Shown here piece after piece: positions 2,797 to 15,537 of a DNA stretch of 45,024 nucleotides. The notes beneath the pieces were generated by a model. The model worked only from the letters and a program-made list of their open reading frames with translations. It was not told where the DNA came from and searched no databases. This DNA comes from Thermoanaerobaculia bacterium (GTDB lineage Bacteria; Acidobacteriota; Thermoanaerobaculia; Multivoradales; JAGPDF01): positions 1-45,024 of the forward strand of contig JAGPDF010000036.1 of the NCBI GenBank assembly GCA_018057705.1, given 5' to 3'. A program made the translations under genes and the position numbers. The stretch's first letter is position 1, and every line of letters starts with the position of its first letter.

Positions 2797-3738
2797 ATGT
2801 CCTTTTGCAGATCGAGCCTGACCGCCTTGTGCCTCCTGGCCGCGGCCACCGGCTGCCGCACGCAGGTTCCGGTAGAGCCGCGGACGACGCCGGCAAGCGC
2901 GCCTGCGGCCGTTTCGGACCTGACGGTCGCCCCGAGCGACGACCGGCTGGGCGGCGTCCTCTGGACGCAGACCTCGGCCGAGTACCGCGCCCTGGCGCTC
3001 GCGGCTTTCGCGCGCGCCCGGATCGAGCTCGACCGCGCCCTCGCCGAACGGGGAGCGACAGCGGCGCTCGAGCAGCAGGGCGAGTTCGCCGATCTGCCAC
3101 CGGCCGTCATCGCCGATGTGGATGAAACCCTGCTCGACAACTCCCCTTACGAGGCCGACCGCATCCGGGCCGGCGGTCGGTACGAAGCGGTCTCCTGGGG
3201 CGCCTGGGTGAACCGCGCCCGCGCGACGCCGGTGCCGGGAGCGCTCGAGTTCGCGCGCTATGCCGCCGAACGCGGCGTGACGATCTTCTACGTCACCAAT
3301 CGGGCCGCCCCCCTCGAAGCGAAGACGCGCGCCAACCTCGAGGCGCTCGGCTTTCCACTGGCGGCCGATCGCGACACCGTACTGGTCCCGGGCGAGCGTC
3401 CCGACTGGAGCTCGGACAAGACGACGCGGCGCGCCGAAGTGGCCAGCGCCTTTCGCATCCTGCTGCTCGTCGGCGACGATCTCGGCGACTTCGTGAGCGG
3501 CGCGCGAGCGGCGCCGGAGGCGCGCCTGGCGCTCGCGGACCGCTTCGCCGACCGCTGGCAGAAGAGCTGGATCCTGCTGCCGAATCCGTACTACGGCTCG
3601 TGGGAGCGGGCGCTCCTGGGGAACGCGCGCGAGCTCTCCGCCGAGGAGGTCCGGCGCCTGAAGATGGAGCGCCTGCGCGGCAGTGGTGACGAGCCGGCGC
3701 CTCGGGAATCGGACAATCCAGGGAAGCTCCAGGACTGA
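2797..3738 (+). CDS. HAD-family acid phosphatase, lipoprotein e(P4)/5'-nucleotidase type
   Basis: A 313-residue secreted lipoprotein. The signal peptide ends AATGC with the lipid-accepting Cys at residue 20. The phosphatase motif DVDETLLDN (nucleophile Asp107, Asp109) matches the DDDD-type class B/C acid phosphatases. Further hallmarks are TIFYVTNRAA (Thr/Asn motif II), a Lys in WSSDKTTRR (motif III) and GDDLGDF (motif IV). The e(P4) family dephosphorylates nucleoside monophosphates and small phosphomonoesters outside the inner membrane, usually to recover nucleosides or phosphate. The ATG at 2797 has GGAGGAG a few bases upstream. A TAGAGT hexamer at 2760-2765, overlapping the previous stop, could be a -10 box. 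The stop overlaps the ATL start by one base. Confidence 0.9.
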   Translation: MSFCRSSLTALCLLAAATGCRTQVPVEPRTTPASAPAAVSDLTVAPSDDRLGGVLWTQTSAEYRALALAAFARARIELDRALAERGATAALEQQGEFADLPPAVIADVDETLLDNSPYEADRIRAGGRYEAVSWGAWVNRARATPVPGALEFARYAAERGVTIFYVTNRAAPLEAKTRANLEALGFPLAADRDTVLVPGERPDWSSDKTTRRAEVASAFRILLLVGDDLGDFVSGARAAPEARLALADRFADRWQKSWILLPNPYYGSWERALLGNARELSAEEVRRLKMERLRGSGDEPAPRESDNPGKLQD

Positions 3739-4118
3739 TGGCCTCAGCCGCCCGGAGCCGCTGGCTCCGCTTCTACGCTGTCGTCGGACAGGTCCCTGCG
3801 GGGAGCGTCGCGACCTACGGCCAGATTGCCCTCCTCGCGGGATTTCCGGGCAACGCCCGCCAGGTCGGCTACGCGCTCGCGGCCCTGCCCGAGGAGAGCG
3901 ACCTGCCCTGGCAGCGCGTCATCAACGCCCGCGGGGAGGTGAGCCCGCGGCACGAGCCGGGCCGCGACGCTTTCCAACGCCACCTGCTCGAAGAGGAGGG
4001 CGTCTCCTTCGGGCTCTCGGGCCGGGTCGATCTGGCGCGGTTCGGCTGGCAACCGGGCGCGCCCCGATTGCCGCGCGGTCGCGGCAGGGGCCGCAACGCC
4101 GGGGCGCAGCGCCGATGA
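3738..4118 (+). CDS. Alkyltransferase-like protein (ATL, MGMT family without catalytic Cys)
   Basis: A 126-residue protein with the DNA-binding domain of O6-alkylguanine-DNA alkyltransferase. The active-site strip PWQRVINARGE has Trp58 where methyltransferases have the alkyl-accepting Cys (PCHRV). GNARQVG contains the Arg finger that flips the damaged base. This is the signature of ATL proteins, which bind O6-alkylguanine without repairing it and hand the lesion to nucleotide excision repair. The length fits ATL rather than full-length Ada/Ogt. It overlaps its neighbours at both ends (TGATG at 3736-3740 and ATGA at 4115-4118), so it is translationally coupled inside an operon. The C-terminus is a short Arg/Gly tail. 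Confidence 0.9.
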   Translation: MASAARSRWLRFYAVVGQVPAGSVATYGQIALLAGFPGNARQVGYALAALPEESDLPWQRVINARGEVSPRHEPGRDAFQRHLLEEEGVSFGLSGRVDLARFGWQPGAPRLPRGRGRGRNAGAQRR

Positions 4119-4795
4119 GGCGAGCCCTGCTCAAACTCTGGCGGGACATGGGTCCCGGCGGCCCCTCGTCGATCACGCTCGCGATGCTCTCGGCCGTCCT
4201 CGGGCTCGGTCTCCCGGTCGCGTGGCGGATCCCTGCGGTCCTTCGTCATGCGCGTCGCGACGAGCGCGCGCCCGCCGACCTGATCCTCGTCCTCGGACGC
4301 GAGCTGCGCGACAACCGCCCGACGCCGGTCTTTCGCGCGCGCCTCGAACACGGCGCCCGCCTGCTTCGTGAAGGCTGGGCGCCCCGGATCGTCGTCTCCG
4401 GCGGCGTGACGGGCGACAGTCGGGTGAGCGAGGCCGAGGCCGGGCGCGATCATCTGCTCGCTGCGGGGCTCCCCGGGTCGGCGGTGCTCGTCGAGGCCGG
4501 CAGCCGGCACACGCTCGAGAACCTGTTCAATGTGCGGGAGACGCTGCGCCGCGAACGTTGGCAGCGCCTGATCCTGGTCTCCGATCCGCTCCACCTGGCC
4601 CGCGCCGCCACCATGGCGCGCGGCCTCAGCCTCGAAGTGCTGCTCTCGCCGGCCGCCGACTGCCCGCCGGAGCGCGGCAGCGCGCGCTGGTTCCTGCGCG
4701 CTGCCCACGAGGCGTTCCTGCTCCACTGGTATCACGTGGGCCTGCTCTACAGCCGCGCCATCCGGTCGGAACGGCTCCTGGGCAGAGTGACCTGA
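4115..4795 (+). CDS. YdcF/SanA-type DUF218 protein
   Basis: 226 residues from the ATG at 4115, which overlaps the ATL stop. An N-terminal hydrophobic segment (about residues 20-38) anchors the protein. The DUF218 domain follows with ADLILVLGRELRDNRPTPVF, RIVVSGGVTGDSRVSEAEAG, the Glu-Asn pair in HTLENLFNVRETL, and LILVSDPLHLARA. These match the YdcF/SanA/ElyC family, whose members are linked to envelope integrity and lipid-carrier metabolism, although the chemistry is mostly unknown. The context (operon with a secreted phosphatase and ATL) does not narrow the role. Confidence 0.85.
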   Translation: MRRALLKLWRDMGPGGPSSITLAMLSAVLGLGLPVAWRIPAVLRHARRDERAPADLILVLGRELRDNRPTPVFRARLEHGARLLREGWAPRIVVSGGVTGDSRVSEAEAGRDHLLAAGLPGSAVLVEAGSRHTLENLFNVRETLRRERWQRLILVSDPLHLARAATMARGLSLEVLLSPAADCPPERGSARWFLRAAHEAFLLHWYHVGLLYSRAIRSERLLGRVT

Positions 4796-6556: not shown

Positions 6557-6562
6557 CTAGAA
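6557..6562 (+). promoter_or_regulatory. -10 element for the selenocysteine tRNA
   Basis: TAGAAT sits with its last base 8 nt before the mature 5' end of tRNA-Sec (6570), the right spacing for a -10 box if the transcript starts at or near the mature end. No convincing TTGACA-like -35 is visible. The box lies just after the M28 peptidase stop. Confidence 0.5.
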
Positions 6563-6569
6563 TGCGTTC

Positions 6570-6669
6570 GGAAGCGCTCGGGGGCTGGTGCCTCTCGCGG
6601 TCTTCAAAACCGTAGTCCGGCGCCGGTTGCGGCGACGGGGGTGGGTTCGATTCCCATGCGCTTCCGCCA
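6570..6669 (+). tRNA. selC: tRNA-Sec (anticodon UCA)
   Basis: A 100-nt tRNA with all bacterial selenocysteine-tRNA features. There is an 8-bp acceptor stem (6570-6577 with 6658-6665) and G discriminator 6666 followed by an encoded CCA (6667-6669). The D stem has 6 bp (6580-6585 with 6590-6595) and a 4-nt loop TGGT. The anticodon stem is 6597-6601/6609-6613 with loop CTTCAAA and anticodon TCA at 6604-6606. A long G/C-rich variable arm fills about 6614-6640. The T arm is at 6641-6657 with TTCGATT. It reads UGA as selenocysteine with SelA, SelB and SelD, none of which lie in this window. The adjacent moeA fits a molybdenum/selenium enzyme such as a formate dehydrogenase elsewhere in the genome. 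Confidence 0.96.
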
Positions 6670-6670
6670 C

Positions 6671-6697
6671 TCTCGCCTCTCTCGCCTCTCTCGCCGT
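6671..6697. repeat. Three tandem copies of a 9-bp unit
   Basis: TCTCGCCTC occurs at 6671-6679 and 6680-6688, and a third copy at 6689-6697 differs in its last two bases. It begins immediately after the tRNA-Sec CCA and is followed by two GCCGCCCC units. It does not form a hairpin. It may be a slippage product in trailer DNA. Confidence 0.7.
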
Positions 6698-6738
6698 TGC
6701 CGCCGCCCCGCCGCCCCGCCGATCGCAGTCGAAACCGA

Positions 6739-6768
6739 AGCGCCGGCCGGCTCGCCGGCGCTCTTTTC
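6739..6768 (+). terminator. Rho-independent terminator after tRNA-Sec
   Basis: A perfect 8-bp GC-rich stem (AGCGCCGG 6739-6746 with CCGGCGCT 6755-6762) with an 8-nt loop is followed by CTTTTC. It ends at the stop codon of the convergent moeA, so it closes the tRNA transcript and may also limit read-through from the other side. Confidence 0.65.
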
Positions 6769-7987
6769 AGCGATCGAGATGCATCCACTCGCAGGGGGCG
6801 CCGGCCACCACCGCCGGGGCACTTGCCCGGATGCGCACCAGGGCCCCCGCCAGGCCGAAGGCGAGCAGGTCGTGCGAGCCCTTGGGTGAGATCGGCGTGA
6901 GGATCGGCCGGCCGCCCTCGTTTCGCAAGGATGCCGGCACGAAGCGGTCGCGCTTGCGGCCGGCGCCGAGGGGGCTGCCGAGGTTGCCGGGCAGTGCGGA
7001 TTCCCAGCAGCCCGCCGGTCCTCCCAGCAGGCGCTCGAGCGCCGGGCGGACGAAGAGCCACCAGGCGACCATCACCGAGGCCGGATTTCCCGGCAGGCCG
7101 AAGACCAGCTGCGCGCCATCGGCGCCGGAGCGATGGGCGACGAGGAGCGGCTTCCCGGGCTGGATCGCCACACCATGGAAGAGCGTCTCGAAGCCGAGCC
7201 GGGCGAGAGCGGGCGCCAGGAAGTCGGCCTCGCCCATCGAGACGCCACCGCAGCAGAGCAGGACGTCCCGGCCCTCGAGGCCGGCTCGCAGGCTCGTCGT
7301 CAGGCCATCGAGGTCGTCGCGCGCGATCCCGAGCGGACGCACGGGCAGGTTCATCCGCTCGAGCTCCGCGACGAGAAAATCGCTGTGGGAGTCGCGCAGC
7401 TGGCCGGGTGCCGGAGTCGCCTCGGGCGGCACGATCTCGTTGCCGGTGAGCTGAAGTGCCAGGCGCGGCGCGCGGTGGACTTCGACCTCGCCGATGCCCT
7501 GGCTGGCGAGGAGCGCGAGCGCCGCCGGGGTGAGAAGCGCACCCGCGGACAGCAGCGGAGCGCCCTGACGGACAATCTCCCCTCGCCGCCGAATGGCGGC
7601 GCCAACAGCGACCTCGGCGGTCGGCCGCACCCGTTCGCCCGCGCACACCGTCTCCTCCACCGCAATGACGCGGTCCGCTCCGTTCGGCACGGCCGAGCCG
7701 GTCATGATGCGCAACGCCCAGCCCTGGGCGAGCGTGCCGGCGAATCCCGGCTCGTCGCGGTCGCCGGCGAATCGGGTGCCGGCGATCGGAAACCAGCCCT
7801 CGTCGGCGCTCGCGCCCGCGAGTGCGAAGCCGTCGAGGGCGGAGAGGTCGCACGGCGGCAGGTCGGTGGTGGCGACGGTTGCGGCGGCGAGCCGGCGCCC
7901 CGCCGCCCGCCGGCGGGAGAGGCGCTCGGCGGGGAGCGGGCCGAGGTGCGGCAGGAGCTTCGCCCAGGCGGCTTCGGGATCGATCAT
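6767..7987 (-). CDS. moeA: Molybdopterin molybdenumtransferase MoeA
   Basis: 406 residues from the ATG at 7987. An upstream in-frame start at 8023 would add 12 unconserved residues. It inserts molybdate into adenylylated molybdopterin to finish molybdenum cofactor. Sequence marks are PPCDLSALDGFAL (domain with the DGFA/DGYA motif), RIMTGSAVPNGADRVIAVEE, the MoCF-binding strips TGNEIV and CCGGVSMGEADF, PGKP, and FGLPGNPASVMV, followed by the C-terminal beta domain. Length matches the family (about 400). It stands alone here: no moaA, moaC, mobA or molybdoenzyme lies within the window. It is convergent with the selenocysteine tRNA. Confidence 0.95.
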   Translation of the reverse strand: MIDPEAAWAKLLPHLGPLPAERLSRRRAAGRRLAAATVATTDLPPCDLSALDGFALAGASADEGWFPIAGTRFAGDRDEPGFAGTLAQGWALRIMTGSAVPNGADRVIAVEETVCAGERVRPTAEVAVGAAIRRRGEIVRQGAPLLSAGALLTPAALALLASQGIGEVEVHRAPRLALQLTGNEIVPPEATPAPGQLRDSHSDFLVAELERMNLPVRPLGIARDDLDGLTTSLRAGLEGRDVLLCCGGVSMGEADFLAPALARLGFETLFHGVAIQPGKPLLVAHRSGADGAQLVFGLPGNPASVMVAWWLFVRPALERLLGGPAGCWESALPGNLGSPLGAGRKRDRFVPASLRNEGGRPILTPISPKGSHDLLAFGLAGALVRIRASAPAVVAGAPCEWMHLDR

Positions 7988-8093
7988 GAAGGGTGTCCTA
8001 TCAGAGGGTCGGGTCGGCGGCAACTTCCGGCAGCGTCATCGGCCCCGGAGGGCGGTTACGGCGGGCAGCCGCAGCATCCGAAGGCGCGCACGG

Positions 8094-8099
8094 TATGAT
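8094..8099 (+). promoter_or_regulatory. -10 element before the DUF4388 gene
   Basis: TATGAT, a near-consensus -10 hexamer, overlaps one candidate ATG (8095) and lies 10 nt before a second in-frame ATG (8110). If it is a promoter, translation must begin at 8110 with almost no leader. No clear -35 is visible. Confidence 0.45.
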
Positions 8100-8895
8100 C
8101 CGGGATTCGATGGACCGACCCTTGGAACGCACCTCCCAGTACCGCGGCGACCTGCGACAGACGGCGCTGCCGGAGATGCTCGCGATCATCCACCAGACGC
8201 GGGTCGCCGGGGTGATCGAGGCCGTGCTCGGCGATGTCGCCAAACGGATCTTTCTCGAGAACGGCTACGTCGTGCACGCCGCGTCGTCCGATCTCGCCGA
8301 CAGCCTCGGCGGCTACCTGCGACGCTCCGGCAAGCTCTCGGAGGGGGACTTCCATGTCGCGATGGCGAATCGCGGAGCGGGGAACAAGCGGCTCGGAGAG
8401 GTACTGATCGAACAGGGCACGCTCGCCCCGGCGCAGGTCTTTCAGGCGATCCGCGAGCACGTCGAAGCGATCGTCTGGAGCCTTTTCGCCTGGGAGGAGG
8501 GCACCGTCACCTTTCACCTCGGCGCCCTCGACACGCGCGAACTGGTGCGCATTCAGATCCCCCTCCGGCAGGTCGTGGTTCAGGGCGTCAAGCGGGCGGC
8601 GAACGCCAAGTCGCTGGTCACCAGGATGGGCGGCAAGGACACGCTCTTCGTGCCCTCCTACAAACTCGAAGACCTGATCGAAGTGGCGCTCGATGCCGAG
8701 GAGTACAAGCTCCTCGCCATGGTCGACGGCAAGCGGACGGTCTACGAGCTCGCCACCAAGGGCCCGCTCGCGCCGCCGGAGAACGCCAGGCTCCTCTACG
8801 CCTATAGTGTGCTTCAGCTGATTCGGAAGGTCGGGGTCGCCGAACCGGCGGCGGCGCCGGGAGTCATCAAGATCAAGCTGCGTCCCGAAGGCTGA
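8095..8895 (+). CDS. DUF4388 (PATAN-like) domain protein
   Basis: 266 residues from the ATG at 8095, or 261 from 8110 if the TATGAT box is the promoter. The N-terminal part (about 15-110: YRGDLRQTALPEMLAIIHQTRVAGVIE, FLENGYVVHAAS) is the DUF4388 domain found with signalling and gliding/social-behaviour proteins in myxobacteria and Acidobacteriota. The middle (LGEVLIEQGTLAPAQVFQAIREHV) resembles the GspE/PilZ-associated N-terminal helical motif. The C-terminal part (YKLLAMVDGKRTVYELA, LLYAYSVLQLIRKVGV) is a typical winged-helix-like end of this family. It has no signal peptide, so it acts in the cytoplasm. It precedes fmdB-like and BNR genes in what looks like one operon. Confidence 0.8.
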   Translation: MIRDSMDRPLERTSQYRGDLRQTALPEMLAIIHQTRVAGVIEAVLGDVAKRIFLENGYVVHAASSDLADSLGGYLRRSGKLSEGDFHVAMANRGAGNKRLGEVLIEQGTLAPAQVFQAIREHVEAIVWSLFAWEEGTVTFHLGALDTRELVRIQIPLRQVVVQGVKRAANAKSLVTRMGGKDTLFVPSYKLEDLIEVALDAEEYKLLAMVDGKRTVYELATKGPLAPPENARLLYAYSVLQLIRKVGVAEPAAAPGVIKIKLRPEG

Positions 8896-13860: not shown

Positions 13861-15537
13861 TCAGGCCTCCGTAGCGACCGGCACGGCCGCCGGACTGAGG
13901 ACGGGAAGGGAGACCACGATCCGGGTGCCTGCCGCGGGTTGGCTCTCCACCTGGATCGAGCCGCCGTGCTCCTGGACGATGCGGTAGACGATGGCCATCC
14001 CGATGCCGGTACCGGAGTCGAAGAAGCTCTGGAACGGATGGAAGAGCTTGGCGCGCTGCTCCTCGGACATACCGTGGCCGGTGTCGGAGAACTCGATGCT
14101 GTAGGACTCGCCCCGGAGCCGGCCGCGGATCCGCAGCTGCCCGCCGTCAGGCATGGCGCGCAGGGCGTTGCGCGCGAGATTCCAGAAGATCTGGCTGATC
14201 TGGTCGGGATCGCCGGTGAGCGGCGTCGATTGCGGATCGAGCTCGAGGATGAACTCGTGCCGCCCAGTGGCCTCCTCGGAGTTGCGCAGCAACGCCGTGT
14301 TCTCGGCCAGCAGGGCGGCGATGTCGAACCTCGCGGCGGCGCGCTCGCGCGGACGGGCGAAGCGCAGGAAGCCCTTGATCGTCCGGTCGAGGCGGAGACT
14401 CTCCTTGACGATGATGTCGAGGAGCCGGCGCTCCTGCGGCCCGGCGGCGAGTGATCCGGAGAGCAGCTGAACGGACCCGGAGATCGCGGCGAGCGGATTG
14501 CCGACCTCGTGCGCCAGACCGGCTGCGAGCTCGCCGACCGCGGCCATGCGGTCCTTGAGCCGCAGCTCCTCCTGTAACCGGCGCCATTGGGAGAGGTCCT
14601 GAAAGACGACGATCCAGCCGGCTGGAACCTCGTGAGCGTCGGTCAGGCGGGTGACGGTGAATCCGATCGGCAGACGCTCGTCGCCACGCTCCACCACGAG
14701 CTCCGACCTCGTTCGTCGGTCGGCACTCGTCGCCGACGCCGCGGCGCTCCACTCCTCTTGCGAGAACAGCCGGCTCTCGGGGAGCGGTCTGCCCAGGAGG
14801 GCGGCTTCGGTGGTGTTCAGGATCTCGAGCGCAGCGCGGTTCACGGAGGTCACCCGGGACTCGAGGTCGGTCGAGATCAGGCCACTGGAGATCGACTGGA
14901 TCACATTGCGATGAAAGACCTCGAGGTCGGCGAGGCTGCCGGTCTTCTGTGCGAGCTCTTCTTCGGCCCGCGACGCGCTCTCGCCGAGGTAGGAGGTCAG
15001 CAAAGCCACCGCATAGAAGCCGAACAGGTGAACCGCCAGATTGTAGGAGATCCGGAAGGAGAGCTCGAGGTCGGTGGGCAGCACCGAGAGCGCCGGCAGC
15101 CAGTTCCGTGCCAGCGCGGCGAGGAGCGTGGCATAGAGGATGTAGGCGAGCCCGGCGATGGTGAGGGCGGCGCGCCGATTCAGAATGACCGCCGACACCA
15201 TGATCACGACCAGATAGAGCATCGAGAACGGACTGGTGATGCCGCCGAAGAAGTAGACCAGCCCGCTCACCAGCAGGAGATCGCCCGCGAACTGGACGTA
15301 GGCGTGCCAGAGGGGGCGCGCCGCGAGCATCGTCAGCAGGCCGATGTGCACGATGCTCGCGATATAGGTCGCCGCGACGAGCACGAAGAGCAGGTTGAAC
15401 TCCGGCAATTCGCCGCGCGAGGAGAGCTCGAAGACGAGATACGAGAGCAGGACGCTCGAGATCATCACCAGCCGGAAGGCGATCAGCCAGCGGAGGTGAC
15501 GGTCGAGATTGGGCAGTGCGCGCGCGGCCGTGCTCAT
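13861..15537 (-). CDS. pilS: Membrane sensor histidine kinase, PilS-like
   Basis: 558 residues. Six hydrophobic segments fill residues 18-185, an N-terminal layout shared with PilS. A short coiled coil and PAS domain (about 205-320: NVIQSISSGLISTDLESRVTSVNRAALEIL) follow. The HisKA domain has phosphorylation site His343 in AAGLAHEVGNPLAA. The HATPase domain shows the N box QIFWNLARNALRAM, G1 FSDTGHGM and G2 GTGIGMAIVYRIVQEHGG. It would phosphorylate the adjacent response regulator, which follows with no gap. PilS senses pilin in the inner membrane in Pseudomonas; that role here is inferred from architecture and gene order. It starts after a terminator, so it needs its own promoter, which I could not identify. 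Confidence 0.88.
   Translation of the reverse strand: MSTAARALPNLDRHLRWLIAFRLVMISSVLLSYLVFELSSRGELPEFNLLFVLVAATYIASIVHIGLLTMLAARPLWHAYVQFAGDLLLVSGLVYFFGGITSPFSMLYLVVIMVSAVILNRRAALTIAGLAYILYATLLAALARNWLPALSVLPTDLELSFRISYNLAVHLFGFYAVALLTSYLGESASRAEEELAQKTGSLADLEVFHRNVIQSISSGLISTDLESRVTSVNRAALEILNTTEAALLGRPLPESRLFSQEEWSAAASATSADRRTRSELVVERGDERLPIGFTVTRLTDAHEVPAGWIVVFQDLSQWRRLQEELRLKDRMAAVGELAAGLAHEVGNPLAAISGSVQLLSGSLAAGPQERRLLDIIVKESLRLDRTIKGFLRFARPRERAAARFDIAALLAENTALLRNSEEATGRHEFILELDPQSTPLTGDPDQISQIFWNLARNALRAMPDGGQLRIRGRLRGESYSIEFSDTGHGMSEEQRAKLFHPFQSFFDSGTGIGMAIVYRIVQEHGGSIQVESQPAAGTRIVVSLPVLSPAAVPVATEA

Follow-up and report, generated by a model that had tools for sequence, protein, structure and literature searches.

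A tRNA gene with a UCA anticodon raises the question of whether it encodes a true selenocysteine tRNA (tRNA-Sec), whether its organism uses it to decode UGA, and where its transcript begins and ends. We examined such a gene in a 45,024-nt window (the whole stretch of DNA that was analysed) from the genome of an uncultured bacterium of the class Thermoanaerobaculia (Acidobacteriota). Our reading, held with a probability of about 0.96, is that this is a functional tRNA-Sec serving the standard bacterial route from UGA to Sec, that the users found in its genome are a formate dehydrogenase (FDH) and a SelW-like protein, and that it is a single transcription unit that is probably leaderless.

Identity and structure of the tRNA-Sec gene

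ARAGORN placed a tRNA-Sec (tca) at 6570-6669 on the forward strand, the sole tRNA of the window, with its anticodon TCA at 6604-6606 (+) and with G73 and the CCA end encoded. The Rfam model RF01852, proposed as a check by the original prediction, matches at 6570-6665 with 68.4 bits against a gathering score of 47 (E 5e-12) and is the only Rfam match across the window, the opposite of the low score that was to count against the gene. At minimum energy the RNA folds into a full cloverleaf (-51.0 kcal/mol) with an 8-bp acceptor, a 6-bp D stem with a 4-nt loop, 5-bp anticodon and T stems, and a long variable arm at 6616-6639 (+) made of 4 + 5 bp with one mismatch and a GTTG loop. Together with the UCA anticodon and G73, this is the set of features by which a tRNA-Sec is recognized. 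The fold had been read from the letters in the same way, from the 8-bp acceptor through to the encoded CCA, and since ARAGORN, RF01852 and the computed fold all agree with it, this is a genuine tRNA-Sec gene. Among the 122 tRNA-Sec genes of the class with an encoded GCCA end, the anticodon loop CUUCAAA is kept in all, acceptor pair 4 shows a compensatory change (A-U to G-C), and acceptor pair 8 is the least conserved pair.

Look-alikes of tRNA-Sec are known, and allo-tRNAs have been reported from Acidobacteria (PMC7609411), which led us to consider whether this gene could be a selC* tRNA-Cys, an allo-tRNA or a UGA-suppressing tRNA-Ser, and not a carrier of Sec. A second RF01852 match in the same genome also clears the cut-off, with 51 bits, and was identified as a tRNA-Ser. 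However, allo-tRNAs are defined by an acceptor domain of 12 bp, either 8/4 or 9/3 (PMC7609411), and the fold here gives 8/5, or 13 bp. The 6-bp D stem, the UCA anticodon and a G73 for SerRS also speak against a look-alike, the gene outscores the best tRNA-Ser by 17 bits, and it is the sole Sec-type tRNA found in a genome that bears selA, selB, selD and TGA-containing genes. We consider a look-alike extremely improbable.

Selenocysteine machinery and candidate selenoproteins

The genome holding the window is 96% complete in 177 contigs, and selA, selB and selD are present on three different contigs, all above curated cut-offs: selA with 441 bits (cut-off 268), selB with 300 bits for its main stretch and 327 with neighbours (cut-off 242), and selD with 337 bits (cut-off 125). 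Lack of all three had been named as the outcome that would speak against Sec decoding, and it is not what the genome holds. The active site of SelD apparently carries cysteine and not Sec, judging from the sequence. With these parts, we infer that G73 and the long variable arm would let SerRS charge the tRNA with serine, SelA would convert Ser to Sec using selenophosphate supplied by SelD, and SelB would bring Sec-tRNA to UGA codons with a SECIS hairpin after them. The candidate users found in this genome, both with an in-frame TGA and a SECIS-type hairpin, are an FDH alpha subunit of the NAD-linked type and a SelW-like protein.

The gene for the FDH alpha subunit lies on contig C138 (L051:850-2829, reverse strand) and contains exactly one in-frame TGA, within CNRTUHAPSVAGL, with GGTCT at +18 closed by a 7-bp stem. 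The TGA is present in every one of the 108 homologues that extend over the site, and GGTCT follows 18 nt after it in 106 of them, with GGGCT in the other two. In the class, 40 genomes hold a relative with E below 1e-120; the gene has a single TGA in 37 of them and no TGA in two, and in the remaining one it is truncated ahead of the site. The neighbours on C138 are a NuoE-NuoF-like fusion and a divergent fdhD, the latter named by sequence reading. The closest named match to the FDH by identity (89%) is the Thermoanaerobaculia MAG isolate Go_SlAct_bin_66, and the isolate name suggests activated sludge. A search for fdhA had been proposed, and the gene it turned up, with its TGA and GGTCT hairpin, is probably that of a selenoprotein.

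The clade of short Sec-FDH alpha subunits to which this protein belongs (L051, L078-L089, L108-L187) has no CxxCxxxC before the match in any member examined, and so is without the N-terminal [4Fe-4S] domain; it spans Acidobacteriota, Planctomycetota, Chloroflexota and others. More distant FDH homologues (L090-L107) do have CxxCxxxC. TGA-containing oxidoreductases of about 1050 aa, from genomes without the short Sec-FDH, were identified as Sec formate dehydrogenases of another kind, and they carry a similar hairpin in the same place.

A SelW-like CxxU protein with one in-frame TGA is encoded on contig C24 of the same genome, with GGTCT 21 nt after the TGA and closed by a stem. TGA appears in this gene both as the Sec codon and as the stop, the stop being taken from the reading frame, and the protein is probably a selenoprotein. 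The start of the gene overlaps the stop of an upstream methyltransferase-like gene as TGAATG (G000 C24, L210 ~3600-4500, reverse strand), suggesting translational coupling of the two. A second, divergent CxxU protein (YCDTUATTRTKAASFAARIE; G019:C6:156167-156334, L214) was seen in one genome, G019, in addition to its SelW. Two peroxiredoxin-family (PF00578) frames of a relative with one in-frame TGA each, G058:C86:223500-223871 and G058:C13:140857-141144, are candidate selenoproteins as well; the peroxiredoxins of the window's genome have no in-frame TGA.

It had been advised that genes appearing to stop early at TGA be rechecked, and this proved sound for the FDH and SelW-like genes elsewhere in the genome. 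It did not apply within the window, where both same-frame TGA junctions, at 873-875 and 13861-13863, are ordinary gene ends; no TGA-interrupted gene was found within the 45 kb, and a SECIS-style scan gave no hits there either. The broader claim that the organism decodes some UGA codons as Sec is supported by the covariance score, by selA, selB and selD and by the TGA-containing FDH, all as predicted.

Selenocysteine use across the class

Of the 149 genomes of the class, 130 yielded a tRNA-Sec. A SelW gene with one TGA was present in 24 of 27 genomes, the window's genome included, most of the 27 having been chosen for lacking the short Sec-FDH. The 19 genomes that yielded no tRNA-Sec mostly have a SelW gene with one TGA as well (15 of 19), and because of this, gaps in the assemblies are the likelier reason for the missing tRNA. 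The RF01852 matches fetched from these 19 genomes were tRNA-Ser, -Leu or -Trp. Given both of these counts, SelW is the most widespread Sec user seen in the class as judged from in-frame TGA codons. Selenocysteine use had been described as patchy across high-G+C environmental lineages, a view that does not hold in this class, where tRNA-Sec and the SelW genes of genomes without it indicate that Sec decoding is a near-universal trait of a largely uncultured group. Automated annotation therefore likely misreads the FDH and SelW genes of the class as truncated. Four genomes (G056, G103, G123 and G133) have two strong tRNA-Sec matches each, which could reflect duplication, contig overlap or contamination.

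Promoter and start of the transcript

As predicted, the tRNA-Sec gene has a -10-like box of its own, TAGAAT at 6558-6563 (+), which leaves a gap of exactly 6 nt to the first base of the tRNA (G1). No -35 element was seen upstream of it, and no -35 enrichment was found upstream of the tRNA-Sec genes of the class. Of 126 class tRNA-Sec genes, 104 are preceded by a TANNNT hexamer at 6-11 nt, with the hexamer at 6-7 nt in 68 of them, compared with 13 of 88 other tRNAs of the same genomes (most of these being tRNA-Ser or tRNA-Ala) and 5.5% of shuffled upstream regions at 5-11 nt; the 126 genes are related sequences whose counts are not independent, and the hexamer was searched for after being seen. 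Gaps of 6-7 nt are dominant in families f1, f3, f4, f5, f7, f8, f9, f14, f15 and f18, and gaps of 8-11 nt occur in f2, f6, f13 and f16. Families f10 and f11 (13 genes) have a different acceptor sequence and are without the close box, and the hexamer was not found at the expected place in the nearest relative, a member of the same genus (G034).

Since the -10 element ends 6 nt upstream, a placement that puts +1 on G1, the transcript of the window's tRNA-Sec probably starts at or beside G1 without a leader for RNase P to remove. We give roughly even odds to a wider proposal, that in most families of the class tRNA-Sec alone among the examined tRNAs is leaderless and made from an abutting promoter, so that transcription initiation, not RNase P cleavage, would define the end of its 8-bp acceptor, in convergence with eukaryotic tRNA-Sec. 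The close box could instead be a normal promoter that gives a short leader, with RNase P still trimming the transcript, and this we regard as possible but somewhat doubtful. The gaps of 8-11 nt in four families would make room for a leader a few nt long, and the start site could sit a few nt off G1; however, in the 68 genes with a gap of exactly 6-7 nt, a canonical sigma-70 start would fall on or next to G1, and the gap in the window is 6. The tRNA-Sec of E. coli is matured through an unusual RNase P cleavage, a step that a leaderless transcript would bypass. Through this promoter placement, the possibility that a bacterial tRNA bypasses RNase P can be tested directly.

Terminator and gene neighbourhood

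Downstream of the gene, a pattern scan and the fold (-19.0 kcal/mol) gave a terminator-like hairpin at 6739-6767 (+), whose 9-bp stem spans 6739-6762 and has CTTTT after it. A relative of the same genus (L059) has a GGCGCCGGC/GCCGGCGCC stem plus a T run in the same interval. The hairpin overlaps the stop of the convergent moeA and for this reason may serve either gene, so the terminator assigned to tRNA-Sec is present but could belong to moeA. The tRNA-Sec gene would form a single transcription unit that ends before moeA. As had been claimed, the neighbour is moeA (molybdopterin molybdenumtransferase, 6767-8023, reverse strand), confirmed by the three Pfam domains PF03453, PF00994 and PF03454. 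A DUF4388 protein (PF14332) follows at 8008-8895 (+).

The pairing with moeA had been taken as a hint of a molybdenum/selenium enzyme such as formate dehydrogenase. A TGA-containing FDH does exist in the genome, but the argument from the pairing is weak because moeA is convergent and not co-transcribed with tRNA-Sec, and the FDH is on another contig. In favour of tRNA-Sec and moeA being kept together for function, through co-use of molybdenum and selenium, moeA lies near tRNA-Sec in some f1 genomes and in one genome each of f6, f7 and f8. However, the pair is convergent in f1, and DUF4388 or tRNA-Ala adjoins tRNA-Sec at most of the other loci and is more often its neighbour in the rest of the class; tblastn on related loci places a DUF4388 homologue directly beside tRNA-Sec in other families. 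Genomes of the class in which this type of Sec-FDH was not found keep Sec as well, and a functional link between the two genes seems unlikely to us.

Comparison with known systems

The tRNA-Sec described here resembles E. coli selC and the RF01852 family in its 8/5 acceptor-T domain, 6-bp D stem, UCA anticodon, long variable arm, G73 and CCA, and differs in being 100 nt long as opposed to 95 nt in E. coli, owing to a longer variable arm. The promoters are also different, with TATAAT 31 nt upstream of selC in E. coli K-12 and a gap of only 6 nt in the window. The FDH is similar to E. coli fdhF, where the SECIS spacing is +18, in having an in-frame UGA in a UHxPSVAGL-type motif and a GGUCU-loop hairpin at +18. 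Unlike in the E. coli enzyme, the alpha subunit described here is a short protein of 660 aa without the N-terminal [4Fe-4S] domain, and its partner is a fused NuoE-NuoF-like protein.

We found no report of a leaderless bacterial tRNA-Sec in the open-access literature. Vertebrate tRNA-Sec is transcribed from +1. Leaderless tRNAs have been described in Nanoarchaeum equitans (PMC10941002). The likeness to both systems is that the transcript probably begins at the first base of the tRNA; the differences are that the promoter here is a bacterial -10 element, that tRNA-Sec is the only one of the examined tRNAs to have this arrangement, and that its start is a prediction from the sequence.
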